DNA from: Anaerolineae bacterium UTCFX1
GTDB lineage: Bacteria; Chloroflexota; Anaerolineae; Anaerolineales; Villigracilaceae
NCBI GenBank assembly: GCA_002050275.1
Contig: MWTB01000002.1
Location: forward strand, 41,176 to 105,175
DNA length: 64,000 nt
Direction of reading: 5' to 3'
Positions 39,115-44,802 of this stretch are shown piece after piece. The position numbers and the translations under genes are program-made. The notes under the pieces are model-generated. The model searched no databases and had not been told where the DNA came from. It saw nothing but the letters and a program-made list of their open reading frames with translations. Position 1 is the first letter of the stretch. Every line of letters begins with the position of its first letter.

Positions 39115-41196
39115 ATGAAAGAGTATACCACCGAGTTTCTTCGCAATGTTGCGCTGGTATCGCATGGGGGAGCGGGAAAGACTATGTTGGCAGAATCGTT
39201 TTTGCGCGCATCGGGGGCGACTACGCGGCTTGGCAAAGTAGAAGACGGAACGACAATTTCAGATTATGACGAAGAAGAACAGCGTCGCAAAATCTCGATC
39301 TACTCCAGCGTTGTTCCAATTGAATATCGCGATCACAAAATTAATGTAATTGACGCGCCGGGCTATGCTGACTTTGTCGGTGAGATCGTCTCCGCGCTTG
39401 GCGTTGTAGACGGCGCGATCATCTTAGTAGACGCGGTATCCGGCATCGAGGTCGGCGCCGAGATCGCATGGCAATACTGCGAAGAGTTTAACCTGCCGCG
39501 CGCATTCGTCATTAATAAGATGGATCGCGATAACGCTGATTTCCAGAAGACGTACGCCGCCATCAAGGAATTCGTGGAAGCGCAGGGCAAGCGTGTATTT
39601 CAAGCGCACCTCCCAATCGGCGAGAAGCAAGATTTCAAGGGCGTTGTTGATGCTGTAAATATGAAAGCCTATGTAGGCGACGATAAAACTACAAGGGAAA
39701 TTCCCGCCGAGTTGAAAGCAGCCGCGCATGCGATGCGGCTTGAGGCGATGGAAGACGCCGCTGAAGGCGAAGATGAATTAATGGAGAAGTATCTTGACAG
39801 TGGCTCTCTTTCGGACGAAGAGATGATGCGCGGCTTAAGGAACGTTATCTCTTCTGGAGATTTCGCTCCTATCTTCTGCGCCGCCGGCGGGCGCGAGACC
39901 GGTGTGATCGCATTGCTGGACGCCATCGTTGACTTAATGCCGTCTCCTGTCAACAGCCCGAAGCGCGTCGCGCAAGGGAAAGATGGAGAAGAAGCGCTGC
40001 AATTTGTTGACAGCGAACCGCTCGTTGCGTATGTGTGGAAGACCACCGCCGATCCGTTCGTCGGGAAGATGACTTACTTCCGCGTCTTGCAAGGCGCGAT
40101 TCAGGCGGATATGCATGTGTGGAATCAAAATAAAGGCGCAGATGAACGTATGTCTGGCTTGCATTTCCAGCGCGGCAAAGAGGTTATCCCTGCCAAAGTG
40201 GCGCATGCTGGCGATATTGCAGTCGTTTCGAAATTGAGCGTAACGACGACAGGCGACACGTTCTGCGATAAGGGACATCCGCTGACCGTTGAAAAACCTA
40301 AATTTCCCGCTGCCTTGTATCGCGTAGCAATTACTCCCAAGACTCAAGCCGACGCTGCGAAAATCTCGCCGACGTTGACCAAACTATGCGAGGAAGATTT
40401 GACGTTGACCTGGCAGAACGACATGATCACGCATGAGACCGTTTTACAAGGCATGGGCGACCAGCACGTGGAGGTGGCGCTTAACCGCGCGCAGACGAAA
40501 TTTCAGGTGGGGTTGGCGGCTCACCAACCGAAGATTCCTTACCGCGAAGGAATTACGCGCAAAGCCTCCGCCCAGTATCGTCATAAGAAGCAAACTGGCG
40601 GCGCGGGTCAGTTTGGCGAGGTGCACCTTCGTATTGAGCCGTTGCCAGGCGCCGATTTTGAATTCAGCGATGAATTGGTGGGAATGAATCTCTCGCGATC
40701 TTATTTGCCTCCCATTGAAAAGAGCATTAAGGCTACGATGGAGCATGGCGCTTTCGCGGGTTATCCAATGAACAACGTCAAAGTGATCGTATATGACGGT
40801 AAGGAGCATGAGGTTGATTCCAAGCCGGTCGCTTTTGAGATCGCTGGACGCGAAGCGTTCAAATTGGCGGTGCAAGATGCGGGTCCCGTGTTGTTTGAGC
40901 CGATCATGACCGTGCGAATTACGATTCCAGATGCGAACATGGGCGATGTTATGAGCGATCTTAGCGTGCGGCGCGGCCGCGTGCAGGGAACGGAATCGGA
41001 GCATGGGCGCACGGTCATAGTCGCACAGGCGCCGATGGCGGAGATGGCGCGCTATACAACCCAGCTGCGTTCGTTAACGGGCGGTCGCGGTTACTTTACG
41101 ATGGAACTTGATCGGTATGATGTTGTGCCTGCGCACATTGCCAGCCCGATTGTGGAAGCTCATAAGAAGGAAGCGGAAGGCAAGAAAGAAGAATAG
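39115..41196 (+). CDS. Elongation factor G-like GTPase (EF-G2 type)
   Basis: 693 residues from ATG 39115, supported by AGGAAGGG upstream; the promoter occupies the rest of the longer open frame. Five EF-G domains can be followed. G1 is SHGGAGKT (16-23), G3 is DAPGYADF with Tyr84 at the position of the catalytic His of DTPGH, and G4 is INKMD. Domain IV ends in SRSYLPPIEKSIKATMEHG, and domain V has TVRITIPDANMGDVMSDLSVRRG. It belongs to the EF-G-like/EF-G2 group, not to the str-operon EF-G. The altered switch II residue suggests slow GTP hydrolysis or a special role. No ribosomal protein genes are near. Confidence 0.9.
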   Translation: MKEYTTEFLRNVALVSHGGAGKTMLAESFLRASGATTRLGKVEDGTTISDYDEEEQRRKISIYSSVVPIEYRDHKINVIDAPGYADFVGEIVSALGVVDGAIILVDAVSGIEVGAEIAWQYCEEFNLPRAFVINKMDRDNADFQKTYAAIKEFVEAQGKRVFQAHLPIGEKQDFKGVVDAVNMKAYVGDDKTTREIPAELKAAAHAMRLEAMEDAAEGEDELMEKYLDSGSLSDEEMMRGLRNVISSGDFAPIFCAAGGRETGVIALLDAIVDLMPSPVNSPKRVAQGKDGEEALQFVDSEPLVAYVWKTTADPFVGKMTYFRVLQGAIQADMHVWNQNKGADERMSGLHFQRGKEVIPAKVAHAGDIAVVSKLSVTTTGDTFCDKGHPLTVEKPKFPAALYRVAITPKTQADAAKISPTLTKLCEEDLTLTWQNDMITHETVLQGMGDQHVEVALNRAQTKFQVGLAAHQPKIPYREGITRKASAQYRHKKQTGGAGQFGEVHLRIEPLPGADFEFSDELVGMNLSRSYLPPIEKSIKATMEHGAFAGYPMNNVKVIVYDGKEHEVDSKPVAFEIAGREAFKLAVQDAGPVLFEPIMTVRITIPDANMGDVMSDLSVRRGRVQGTESEHGRTVIVAQAPMAEMARYTTQLRSLTGGRGYFTMELDRYDVVPAHIASPIVEAHKKEAEGKKEE

Positions 41197-41206
41197 CGAG
41201 TGCAAG

Positions 41207-41258
41207 TAATTGACAAGAAGCTCCCCGAAAGGAAGCCTCTTGTCAATTAAATCTTTTC
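41207..41258 (+). terminator. Terminator after the EF-G-like gene
   Basis: TAATTGACAAGA (41207-41218) pairs perfectly with TCTTGTCAATTA (41238-41249) around a 19-base region that can itself pair partly (AGC with GCC). AATCTTTTCC follows. The stem is AT-rich but long. Confidence 0.7.
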
Positions 41259-41326: not shown

Positions 41327-41354
41327 TTGACAATCTCGATAAGAACTGTAAAAT
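41327..41354 (+). promoter_or_regulatory. Promoter of the sulfur/cysteine block
   Basis: Perfect TTGACA (41327-41332), 16-base spacer, TAAAAT (41349-41354). The predicted transcript starts near 41361, only about 7 bases before the ATG of a 14-residue upstream ORF. Confidence 0.8.
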
Positions 41355-41360
41355 AGCGTT

Positions 41361-41515
41361 TCAAACTATGAAAACTCTTAATCATTGCTTGTGTATCGGG
41401 CGGGGCTCGTAACCGCCGCCTGAGAGACAGATTGCAGTCAATAGACCTCTAAGACGGCTGGACGACCTCCGCACGCAAAATACGCGACGTGTGGCGCTTG
41501 TTCGCCGTCTTTTTG
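41361..41515 (+). ncRNA. Structured leader RNA with terminator
   Basis: About 155 bases from the promoter to a T run. Pairings seen: GGCGG (41399-41403) with CCGCC (41413-41417) around the uORF stop codon, CCGCAC (41469-41474) with GTGTGG (41489-41494), AGACGGC (41452-41458) with GCCGTCT (41504-41510), and the compact terminator stem GGCG (41493-41496) with CGCC (41503-41506), then TTTTT. It does not fit riboswitch classes I know. It could be an attenuator for the downstream sulfur genes or a free small RNA. Confidence 0.5.
41368..41412 (+). CDS. Candidate 14-residue leader peptide with CLC
   Basis: ATG 41368 to TAA 41410-41412 encodes MKTLNHCLCIGRGS. Two of 14 residues are cysteine, at codons 7 and 9. 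The ATG lies about 7 bases after the predicted transcription start and has no ribosome site, as in near-leaderless messages. The stop codon lies in the loop of the first leader hairpin (41399-41417), so a ribosome stalled at the Cys codons would change that pairing. Downstream genes concern sulfur transfer and cysteine synthesis. Cysteine-responsive upstream ORFs are known from mycobacteria. Expression is unproven. Confidence 0.35.
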   Translation: MKTLNHCLCIGRGS

Positions 41516-41579
41516 TTTGTCTGTTGGTTGCTCTTGTTTAATTTAGGAGTTATGCAGTTGTGGATAGGATGTAGGAAAG

Positions 41580-41899
41580 ATGTTTGAGGTAAGCGCAGAT
41601 AGTCCGGCGAATAATGATTTATTTGGCTTCGAACCAAGAGGCGTCAGTTTTCAAGTTTTGCAGGCGGTTCCGTCAAAGATAGACCCGCACTCAACATCAT
41701 TCAGATTGCAGCCTTATTTGGAACTTTGCTCAACAAGCCGGCAATTGTATGCTTCACTGCGCTGGATTGCGCGCCGTGTAAAACGATGCGGCGCCCTGCT
41801 CTAGATCAACCAGCAAATTTACTTGGAGAACGATTGCGTGTTGTTAAAATTAACGCGGTTGAACGTCCATGCTTGTTTGAGAAATTAGGAGATTTTAAT
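41580..41899 (+). pseudogene. Decayed cysteine synthase/thioredoxin mosaic
   Basis: Two recognisable fragments, neither a whole gene. Codons 41663-41701 read GGSVKDRPALNII, the PLP-lysine motif of O-acetylserine sulfhydrylases (Lys codon 41675-41677). The sequence before it is out of frame and has several stops in this frame up to 41617. In the same frame, 41726-41899 reads like the start of a thioredoxin-type protein: NKPAIVCFTALDCAPCK with a CAPC centre at 41768-41779, then RVVKINAVERP and GDFN, where the match ends. That frame runs on without a stop into the MoaD-like gene. A TTG at 41726 could in theory start a thioredoxin-MoaD fusion of 144 residues, but the strong ribosome site at 41887 argues for a separate start at 41900. 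I read the stretch as remnants of lost genes of the same pathway. Confidence 0.5.
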
Positions 41900-42160
41900 A
41901 TGCCCATTTTACGAATTCCAACTCCGTTGCACGCTTATGTGAGCGGACAGGCTGAAGTTAATGTGAGCGGTACGGGCGTTTTCGAGGCGTTGAGCGATCT
42001 CACGACTCAACATCCCGCTATATTTAATGAAAACGCTGTCTTGCGCCCATTTGTCAATCTCTTTATCGGTCAAGATAATATCGAAGATTTACAAGGGACT
42101 GCGACATCGCTTAAAGATGGAGAAAAGATCGCGTTCGTTCCATCCATTGCGAGAGGTTAA
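41900..42160 (+). CDS. MoaD/CysO-like sulfur carrier protein
   Basis: 86 residues from ATG 41900, which has AGGAG (41887-41891) at ideal distance. Ubiquitin-like beta-grasp of the MoaD/CysO group: RIPTPLHAYVSGQAEVNV, then an LRPFVNLFIGQDNIEDL strand-turn and LKDGEKIAFVPSIA, as in CysO-type carriers. Carriers of this kind are adenylated and thiocarboxylated on a C-terminal Gly-Gly, then give sulfur to cysteine or molybdopterin synthesis. Here the end is Ala-Arg-Gly, so the penultimate glycine is Arg85. The activating enzyme gene begins one base after its stop codon, which supports a working pair despite the unusual tail. Confidence 0.8.
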   Translation: MPILRIPTPLHAYVSGQAEVNVSGTGVFEALSDLTTQHPAIFNENAVLRPFVNLFIGQDNIEDLQGTATSLKDGEKIAFVPSIARG

Positions 42161-42161
42161 G

Positions 42162-43313
42162 ATGTTGCCAGAATTATCACACGAAGAAATCTTACGTTAT
42201 TCCCGGCATCTCTTGATTCCCGAAGTGGGCTTGGAAGGTCAACGTAAATTAAAGAATTCGTCGGCATTGATCGTTGGCGTCGGCGGGCTCGGCTCGCCTG
42301 TGGCATTGTATCTCGCGGCGGCAGGCGTTGGGCGGCTCGGCATTGTAGACCACGACGCGGTCGATTCGTCGAACTTGCAACGGCAGGTAATTTTCGGAAC
42401 TTCCTCTATTGGCAGGTTGAAAGTGGAGAGCGCGCGGAGTAGACTGCTTGATCTCAACCCCGACATTCAAGTGGACGCGTTCAATGAACCATTCACTTCA
42501 GGGAACGCGCTGCGCATTGCGCGAGATTTCGATTTGATCCTCGATGGCACCGACAACTTTCCTACGCGTTATCTCACTAACGATACGGCGGTCTTCCTCG
42601 GTAAGCCGAATGTCTATGCTTCGATTTACCGCTTTGATGGGCAAGTCAGCGTTTTCTACGCTAAGATGGGACCGTGCTATCGCTGCCTCTTCCCTGAACC
42701 GCCTCCGCCCGGACTCGTCCCTTCATGCGCGGAAGGCGGCGTTTTAGGCGTGTTGCCGGGAACGATCGGTATGCTTCAAGCCACTGAAGCGTTGAAACTT
42801 TTACTTGGCGTCGGCGAACCGTTAATCGGAAAACTCTTGTTGTATAACGCGCTTGACATGTCGTTTGACTTTGTGAGATTGAAGAAGAATCCAAACTGTC
42901 GCGTATGCGGACCGAACGCCGACGTCAAAGAATTGATTGACTACGAAGAATTCTGCGGTGCGCCGAGTCACGACCATGAGGAAGCCTCCGCTGACGCTCG
43001 TGTAGATATTACCGCTTCCGAACTTGCCGAGCGGATGAAGATGAATCATATTAAATTGCTCGATGTTCGTGAACCGCATGAATTGGAGATTTCCAAATTG
43101 CCGAATGCGATCAATATTCCGCTGGGGCAATTGGCGGGTAGGCTCGTCGAGTTGGATAGCGCTGACGACATAGCGGTCTTTTGTAAGAGCGGAACGCGTT
43201 CCATGCGCGCGTTAGAATTGTTGTCTAGCGCGGGATTCAAGAAGGTGAGAAACCTTAAAGGCGGCATTAACGCCTGGGCGAAGGAAGTAGACGCGAGTTT
43301 GCCGATTTATTAA
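42162..43313 (+). CDS. MoeZ-type adenylyltransferase/sulfurtransferase
   Basis: 383 residues from ATG 42162 (GAGAGG upstream; one base after the carrier gene). Domain 1 (about 1-250) is a ThiF/MoeB/UBA enzyme: HLLIPEVGLEGQ, the ATP loop GVGGLGSP, DSSNLQRQ, DGTDNFPTRY, and zinc cysteine pairs CYRC and CRVC. Domain 2 (about 285-383) is a rhodanese with LLDVREPHELEISKL and the active loop FCKSGTRSM. It would adenylate the C-terminus of the MoaD/CysO-like carrier and transfer persulfide sulfur to it. The same architecture as MoeZ of actinobacteria and eukaryotic MOCS3/Uba4. A terminator follows. Confidence 0.92.
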   Translation: MLPELSHEEILRYSRHLLIPEVGLEGQRKLKNSSALIVGVGGLGSPVALYLAAAGVGRLGIVDHDAVDSSNLQRQVIFGTSSIGRLKVESARSRLLDLNPDIQVDAFNEPFTSGNALRIARDFDLILDGTDNFPTRYLTNDTAVFLGKPNVYASIYRFDGQVSVFYAKMGPCYRCLFPEPPPPGLVPSCAEGGVLGVLPGTIGMLQATEALKLLLGVGEPLIGKLLLYNALDMSFDFVRLKKNPNCRVCGPNADVKELIDYEEFCGAPSHDHEEASADARVDITASELAERMKMNHIKLLDVREPHELEISKLPNAINIPLGQLAGRLVELDSADDIAVFCKSGTRSMRALELLSSAGFKKVRNLKGGINAWAKEVDASLPIY

Positions 43314-43315
43314 CG

Positions 43316-43352
43316 AGAACTCCGAAGCGTCAAAAATATGGGAGTTCTTTTT
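43316..43352 (+). terminator. Terminator after the MoeZ-type gene
   Basis: AGAACTCC (43316-43323) pairs perfectly with GGAGTTCT (43341-43348), followed by a run of five T (43348-43352). A TACAAT at 43360-43365 just beyond it may be the -10 of a promoter for the next gene, without a clear -35. Confidence 0.75.
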
Positions 43353-43392
43353 GATGGAGTACAATACTCCTATCCAAACCAAAGGAGCGAGA

Positions 43393-44802
43393 ATGGCTTT
43401 ACTGGCATCTGAGGAAAAACGAGTCTACGACAATATTTTGGGCGCGATGGGCAATACGCCGCTTGTGCGACTGGGAAAGATCGCCAAAGATTTGCCTGTC
43501 CCGTTGTATGCGAAATTGGAGTGGATGAATCCGGGCGGATCGGTAAAAGACCGGGTGGGGGCGTTTATTGTTGAGCAGGCAGAGAAACGCGGAGAGCTTA
43601 AACCGGGCGGAACAATTGTTGAAGCGACATCGGGGAATACGGGAGTAGGACTGGCAATTGCGGCGGCTCTGAAAGGCTATAAAACCATCTTTGTTATGCC
43701 CGATAAAATGAGCAACGAGAAGATTTTACTGTTGCGCGCGTACGGCGCCAGGGTGGTGATTACGCCTACTGCGGTCGCTCCTGAGGATCCTCAGTCGTAC
43801 TATGAGGTGGCGAAACGTTTCGCGCGCGAAACGCCGAATGCGATCCTTGCGAATCAATACCATAATCCCGATAATCCGAAGACGCATGAGCGAACGACCG
43901 GCCCTGAAATTTGGGAGCAGACTGCAGGGCGCGTGACCGATGTTATTATCGGTATGGGGACCGGGGGGACGATCTCTGGCGTAGGACGCTTCCTCAAGTC
44001 TAAGAATCCGAACATTCAGATCGTGGGCGTGGATATTGAGGGTTCAATCCTGACGGAAATTTGGCAGAACAAGGGGGCGATTCCCGCTGGTGCGTATCCG
44101 AAAACGTATAAGGTAGAGGGGATCGGCGAAGATTTTTTGCCGACTACGCTCGACCTGTCCGTTGTGGATGCGATCGAACGCGCAGGCGACCGTGAATCAT
44201 TCTTGTGGGCGCGTCAACTTGTGCGACAAGAAGGTATCTTTGCCGGCGGTTCGTCCGGGTCGGCGCTGGCGGGCGCGATTAAATATTGCCGTAAGTTAAA
44301 AGGTGAGCGTTTGCCTGTGGTGATCTTCCCCGATTCGGGTTCGCGTTATCTTTCTAAATTTTATGACGATAAATGGATGCGCGAATTTGGTTTTCTTTCC
44401 ATGGAATTTGGCGAGACTTCGCTTGGCGATTTGTTAATCGCTAAGCCCGATAAGATTTTATACTCGGCTGCTCTAGGCGATTCGATGCGTAAGGTTATCG
44501 CCATTATGCACCAGCATGGAATTTCGCAAATGCCTGTCGTTGGCGCCGGTGGCGCGCTGGTCGGTCTGATCGAAGAAGTGGACTTGCTGAATCATATGCT
44601 CGAGAGGCACGATCATAGCCATGAAGAAACAATTGATGCGCTTGTGCAGAACGCCGGAGCAGTCTTCCCGCAGGTGACTTCGCTGGAGGAAGCGATGCCG
44701 GCGCTGAAGAGTGGGTTGGCTTTGCTGATCGTAGAGAACAGCCGTCCAGTTGGGATTTTGACCAAAATTGACGTATTGGACTATGTGGCGGGGAAAATCT
44801 GA
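43393..44802 (+). CDS. PLP cysteine/cystathionine synthase with CBS domains
   Basis: 469 residues from ATG 43393, with AAAGGAG upstream. Residues 1-325 are a fold-type II PLP enzyme: NPGGSVKDR with Lys52, the asparagine loop EATSGNTGVGLA, and the phosphate cup GTGGTISGVG. Residues about 345-469 are a CBS domain pair (KVIAIMHQHGISQMPVV and VGILTKIDVLDYV). This layout is shared by cystathionine beta-synthases and some bacterial cysteine synthases; sequence alone does not decide between serine plus homocysteine and O-acetyl or O-phosphoserine plus sulfide or thiocarboxylate. The carrier and activating genes upstream favour cysteine synthesis from protein-bound sulfur. The CBS pair suggests allosteric control by an adenosyl ligand. 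Confidence 0.88.
   Translation: MALLASEEKRVYDNILGAMGNTPLVRLGKIAKDLPVPLYAKLEWMNPGGSVKDRVGAFIVEQAEKRGELKPGGTIVEATSGNTGVGLAIAAALKGYKTIFVMPDKMSNEKILLLRAYGARVVITPTAVAPEDPQSYYEVAKRFARETPNAILANQYHNPDNPKTHERTTGPEIWEQTAGRVTDVIIGMGTGGTISGVGRFLKSKNPNIQIVGVDIEGSILTEIWQNKGAIPAGAYPKTYKVEGIGEDFLPTTLDLSVVDAIERAGDRESFLWARQLVRQEGIFAGGSSGSALAGAIKYCRKLKGERLPVVIFPDSGSRYLSKFYDDKWMREFGFLSMEFGETSLGDLLIAKPDKILYSAALGDSMRKVIAIMHQHGISQMPVVGAGGALVGLIEEVDLLNHMLERHDHSHEETIDALVQNAGAVFPQVTSLEEAMPALKSGLALLIVENSRPVGILTKIDVLDYVAGKI

Follow-up and report, generated by a model that had tools for sequence, protein, structure and literature searches.

A predicted cysteine-responsive transcription attenuator ahead of cysteine and sulfur genes in the Anaerolineae

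Described attenuators and sulfur leaders

The attenuators of the trp, his, leu, thr and phe type (Rfam Trp_leader, His_leader, Leu_leader, Thr_leader and Phe_leader) contain a small ORF whose codons include those for the amino acid that the operon makes. They further have an anti-antiterminator, an antiterminator and an intrinsic terminator, with the biosynthetic genes behind. The leader described here, which was found in a 64 kb window (the whole stretch of Anaerolineae DNA that was analysed), appears to share all of these parts. It differs from them in being specific for cysteine, with only two control codons in a fixed C-x-C arrangement, and in the antiterminator strand, which lies inside the end of the upstream ORF (uORF) and over its stop codon. 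Further differences are a probable second, outer terminator that nests the first one, and the host, which belongs to the Chloroflexota.

In Firmicutes, cysteine and methionine genes can be preceded by T-box and S-box (SAM) leaders, which recognize tRNA or SAM directly and without a uORF. The Anaerolineae leader resembles them as an RNA leader predicted to end transcription early before sulfur genes, and is unlike them in having a uORF and no Rfam match.

Cys leader peptides were predicted by Seliverstov and co-workers before the cys operons of Mycobacterium and P. acnes and before cbs of Bifidobacterium; these peptides have runs of Cys codons near the stop codon and no terminators (PMC1262725). 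In 2015 ribosome profiling of mycobacteria located ribosomes on Cys uORFs, which were regarded as a candidate for the first bacterial cysteine-directed attenuation (PMC4633059), and later work on M. smegmatis (Canestrari et al. 2020) is cited as translation attenuation in two further papers (PMC13236596; PMC9031893). The actinobacterial Cys uORFs are sometimes leaderless, and a response to cysteine was proposed or shown for them. With the leaders of Mycobacterium, Propionibacterium acnes and Bifidobacterium the Anaerolineae leader shares a short Cys uORF before cys or cbs genes. The likeness to cysteine uORFs of mycobacteria, which had been drawn in a preliminary description of the locus, does not extend to the build. 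The mycobacterial polycysteine uORFs have no conserved terminator (PMC1262725), whereas the Anaerolineae leader combines a terminator with an antiterminator, and instead of a contiguous Cys run at the stop codon all sites have C-x-C followed by five codons. Cysteine-directed attenuation was thus proposed in actinobacteria without a terminator (PMC1262725, PMC4633059), while in the Anaerolineae the whole device is visible. A literature search for attenuators or leader peptides of Chloroflexi or Anaerolineae returned none of this kind; most subscription papers were outside its scope, and it counts as weak evidence of novelty.

The leader in the window and its relatives

All features of the window leader lie on the plus strand. 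The promoter TTGACA-16-TAAAAT (41327-41354) matches the consensus at 11 of 12 positions; its -35 and -10 elements are kept in relatives, where a strong promoter stands at a similar place ahead of the uORF. The uORF, MKTLNHCLCIGRGS followed by a stop codon, comprises 14 codons (41368-41412, with the ATG at 41368 and the stop at 41410-41412) and contains the Cys codons TGC (41386-41388) and TGT (41392-41394). Its predicted 5' UTR is about 7 nt long, compared to 0 to about 40 nt in most relatives, and an SD-like sequence precedes the uORF at 11 of 86 sites. The stop codon is flanked by GGCGG (41399-41403) and CCGCC (41416-41420), which delimit a stop-codon hairpin (41399-41420). Promoter, Cys uORF and the enclosure of the stop codon in a hairpin had all been read from the window before and were found again as described. 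The terminator hairpin with its U tract occupies 41451-41514 (stem at about 41451-41510, TTTTT at 41510-41514) and was recognized by scan, by folding and in relatives. A terminator had been placed here before the sulfur genes in the earlier reading too, but the structure continues to about 41544 with an outer stem.

The fold of 41361-41516 reaches a z score of -3.0 and is better than 200 of 200 shuffles; extension to 41544, which includes the outer stem, gives -4.0. Promoter and terminator scans alone found 2 in the window against 1.2 and 2.1 expected, which is not above chance, and they were not used as proof. The degree to which relatives keep the leader, by contrast, exceeds chance by far. 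The pattern CxCxxRxx-stop occurs only once in the window. In keeping with the preliminary description, which matched the leader to no riboswitch class, the comparison with Rfam returned nothing at the gathering score, and matches below threshold (e.g. mir-2232) were discarded as chance.

A blastn-type search with the leader against 152 genomes of the same family gave about 60 matches with E below 1e-10, which mostly lie 2 to 3 kb ahead of a moeZ homologue. In the best 30 matches promoter, ORF, hairpin and terminator align over their full length, and every ORF follows the pattern M-x(4 or 5)-[YHD]-C-L-C-[IL]-x-R-G-[SAV]-stop. The weaker matches are leader copies ahead of other operons. A covariance model of the leader core (R1) detected the leader in 48 of 396 genomes from the class, distributed over several families and orders; this figure includes two matches (L146 and L147) which were later set aside. 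When R1 was applied to 400 genomes from the phylum, 33 of 34 matches fell into the class and the remaining one was spurious. The collection comprises 86 sites, all within the class Anaerolineae. Most of them were found by mutual similarity, and since the sequences are related by descent, site counts are not independent. A match in genome G658 was rejected as a false positive, as was L147, which lies inside an ABC transporter permease gene. L146 (G372:C306:5164), a degenerate relative (MHNVKPFMRHLIHCICIGRRQPTPPLR) in which the end of the uORF has not been kept, was excluded as doubtful; it stands ahead of a sulfite/nitrite reductase-like gene.

Every uORF of the collection ends with C-x-C-x-x-R-(G)-x-stop. 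The conserved small ORF and Cys codons that the preliminary description had proposed to look for in relatives are present at 86 of 86 sites, together with covarying stems. Cys1 is TGC at 83 sites and TGT at three, and Cys2 is TGT throughout. The two codons keep a fixed distance, with C-x-C strict and CC or CCC never found, and the following arginine is equally invariant (86/86). The codon between them is occupied by 10 different codons for 8 residues (CLC, CSC, CIC, CMC and CFC in the copies ahead of other operons), and the N-terminus varies as well. In other families of the class C-x-C-x-x-R is kept, and the last residue and the stop codons differ. An in-frame ATG that is open to the Cys codons within 26 codons exists at all 86 sites, compared to 2 and 9 of 86 for the other two frames and at most 25 for shuffled upstream sequence. 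Predicted uORF length ranges from 11 to 26 codons without the frame ever being lost, and for the longer leader peptides NCBIfam holds no family. Because the collected sites stem from similarity searches, a second model (R2) was restricted to the RNA behind the Cys codons and is blind to them. All of its 32 matches in the class coincide in register with sites where both Cys codons are present. The order TGC-then-TGT (41386-41394) is kept at 83 of 86 sites although TGC is preferred over TGT in the ORFs of the window (82 to 32), to which these codon usage figures refer.

Competing pairings and the proposed switch

The end of the uORF and the 3' arm of the stop hairpin form region 2 (41400-41420 in the window), with the consensus GCGGGGYUCGUARCCACCG. 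Its partner, region 3 (41454-41472), reads CGGU(U)GGACGA(C)CCCCGC and makes up the base of the terminator together with its 5' arm. At 86 of 86 sites the best duplex falls on these two regions, with a mean of -29.0 kcal/mol for the own partner versus -25.1 (sd 0.2) when partners are swapped between sites. Outside the GCGGGG motif the values are -13.2 for own and -10.6 for swapped partners, and none of 200 permutations was as good. Compensatory changes are found in CUCCU with AGGA (L092), GCGUUAGC/GCUAACGC, GCGUUAGCCGCCG with CGGCGGCUAACGC (L141), ACUGU/ACAGU (L131), CCGCU/AGCG (L133), GCGAGG/CCUCGC (L152, L154) and GCGGAG/CUCCGC (L101). The 2:3 pairing, which was missing from the preliminary description, is on this comparative evidence the antiterminator. 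For the stop hairpin (1:2, the anti-antiterminator) the covariation score was reached by none of 500 shuffles. A count of covariation in fixed columns of alignment A2 turned out weak because MAFFT had misaligned region 3, and was replaced by the swapped-partner tests.

Antiterminator and terminator share region 3 and are mutually exclusive, and an intrinsic terminator precedes the first gene, although at a few divergent sites the outer terminator is the only one with a U tract. The outer stem is a third helix around the terminator hairpin, formed in most relatives by GCAGUCAACGG and CCGUUGACUGC; a U-rich tract usually comes after it. The stem differs in sequence from group to group, and its arms match each other (-20.4 kcal/mol own, -14.7 with sd 0.4 permuted). 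In the window the arms lie at 41434-41446 and 41519-41531; all 13 pairs are kept, and the U-rich tract that ends at 41544 is poor. In the cysK-cysE group a good U tract seems to be kept only at the outer stem. Probably, outer stem and U tract act as a second, nested terminator, which is the simplest reading of this element. Four leaders of family f47 (L141, L143, L145, L155), located ahead of rhodanese genes with cysO-like genes behind, have a near perfect antiterminator of 15 to 19 bp and much larger terminators (-68 to -81 kcal/mol).

The comparison of sites shows the uORF with its Cys codons, the gene context and the three pairings. We infer from this arrangement that the uORF is translated, that ribosomes stall on it, in which order the RNA folds and that the switch responds to cysteine. 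The leader is, with a probability that we put at about 0.92, a cysteine-specific, ribosome-mediated transcription attenuator with the anatomy of the trp and his type. This is in line with the translation-coupled cysteine attenuation suggested in the preliminary description, which gains support from the invariant Cys codons, the covarying stems and the absence of an Rfam family. Transcription would begin a few bases ahead of the uORF, with a ribosome following the RNA polymerase. When Cys-tRNA is plentiful the ribosome would reach the stop codon and cover region 2, so that region 3 could join region 4 to a terminator and transcription would stop before the sulfur and cysteine genes. When Cys-tRNA is short the ribosome would wait at TGC or TGT, upstream of region 2, which would be free to pair with region 3; no terminator would form and the operon would be transcribed. 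If no ribosome is present the stop hairpin could hide region 2 and the terminator would be favoured.

A ribosome masks about 12 nt past the first base of its A site. The leaders of 85 sites were folded with the RNA upstream of the leading edge of the ribosome treated as masked. With the ribosome at Cys1 the 2:3 pairing forms in 85 of 85 sites and at Cys2 in 83, whereas with the ribosome at the stop codon 2:3 cannot form and the terminator (3:4) does so at 81 sites. The sequence of steps matches that in trp and his attenuation. At equilibrium the complete leader often favours the terminator, even when a ribosome is stalled. Antitermination must therefore depend on which pairing folds first, as it does in other attenuators, and the decision would be taken before region 4 is made. 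In untranslated RNA 2:3 is also favoured before region 4 exists, which means that the stop hairpin has to form first if there is to be repression in the absence of a ribosome.

The strict C-x-C spacing and the invariant arginine would also suit an arrest or sensor peptide. In that case the nascent CxC, through its thiols or through a metal bound to it, or else the R-G-S end would act in the ribosome tunnel and cause a stall at the stop codon, and the switch would sense redox state or metal in place of Cys-tRNA. However, the last residue varies (F, L, R, A, V, C) with region 3 changing alongside. As the compensatory changes in 2:3 alter the last residues of the peptide, the R-G-S end is held by RNA pairing and not by the peptide. 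The N-terminus is moreover free in length and sequence, and cysteine genes follow throughout, which makes such a peptide improbable. We give little credence as well to a role of the C-x-C pair in tuning the pausing of the ribosome, by which the switch would read thiol, redox or metal state, either alongside charged Cys-tRNA or in its place.

The high conservation of the core at the nucleotide level, including the Cys codons themselves, would also suit direct binding of a metabolite or tRNA by an RNA of the riboswitch or T-box type, with the uORF as a by-product. Start codon and frame are, however, kept at all sites while the length of the uORF varies, no compact conserved aptamer exists besides the switching strands, and Rfam contains no matching family; we regard this reading as very improbable. 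Just as hard to sustain is the view of the element as an independent small RNA that has a promoter and a terminator of its own. It draws on the window copy, whose two terminators lie about 355 nt ahead of cysO and are separated from it by a gene remnant, but in relatives the copies stand directly ahead of cysteine and sulfur operons of different kinds, often at a short distance, and their antiterminator covaries. We therefore retain the cysteine attenuator, by which Anaerolineae very probably turn the genes behind the leader on when their ribosomes are short of cysteine, as the conserved Cys mini-gene and the competing hairpins ahead of cysteine and sulfur genes suggest.

Genes behind the leaders and the state of the window copy

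The operons behind the leaders include cysM-mec-tusA-cysO-moeZ, cysK-cysE (cysK with a serine acetyltransferase gene), DUF4395-trx-cysK, rhodanese-sufE, and a CBS gene followed by a gene of the gamma-lyase family. In relatives the leader is often only a few tens of bases away from the first start codon. Gene identities were assigned by Pfam domains for representatives and by sequence inspection for the rest, and nearly all legible genes are related to cysteine or sulfur. Two Cys codons in every uORF go together with cysteine genes downstream. What the sequences predict is a cysteine attenuator regulon that extends across the class, has all parts of the switch and is larger than previously stated. 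The device seems to be reused ahead of at least five kinds of cysteine or sulfur operon in a class that is known mostly from metagenomes, so that a putative cysteine regulon can be read from sequence there. It would tie orphan genes (DUF4395, rhodanese-SufE pairs) to the supply of cysteine, and the leader makes a simple reporter test in a laboratory host possible. One Anaerolineae contig has a SAM riboswitch (L154:1809-1931, RF00162, 76.9 bits) about 1.2 kb downstream of a Cys attenuator, and two kinds of sulfur leader therefore coexist there.

In the window Pfam domains identify a CysO-like sulfur carrier of the ThiS family (41900-42160), a MoeZ-like ThiF-rhodanese protein (42162-43313) and a cysteine synthase/cystathionine beta-synthase-like protein (PALP + CBS, 43351-44802). 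The sulfur-carrier and cysteine synthase genes that had been named as following the leader are thus present, but cysO is about 385 nt away from the leader, and a thioredoxin-like remnant (41726-41899, by Pfam), in frame with cysO, lies between. In genome G017 the leader is followed by cysM, Mec (JAB), tusA, a DsrE-like gene, cysO and moeZ, with a CBS-type synthase farther down. The first four of these genes are missing from the genome of the window and from its sister G015, which explains the gap in the window. The region 41726-42160 is one ORF which joins the thioredoxin-like remnant to the CysO/ThiS domain; it is probably a decaying gene left by the loss of cysM-mec-tusA-dsrE, and G015 lacks most of the thioredoxin part.

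R1 found one convincing leader copy in the genome of the window. Five weak extra matches (E 0.04 to 0.9) were dismissed, as the expected core is absent from their DNA. Between the window and G015 the leader shows about 8 changes in 160 nt, counted by eye, two of which lie in the uORF and are both synonymous. The upstream neighbour of the leader is a fusA-like gene that ends at 41196 and has a terminator of its own. The hairpin of this terminator (41205-41250) also carries compensatory changes, with TAATTGACAAGA/TCTTGTCAATTA in the window versus TAATTGATCAGA/TCTGATCAATTA in G015.
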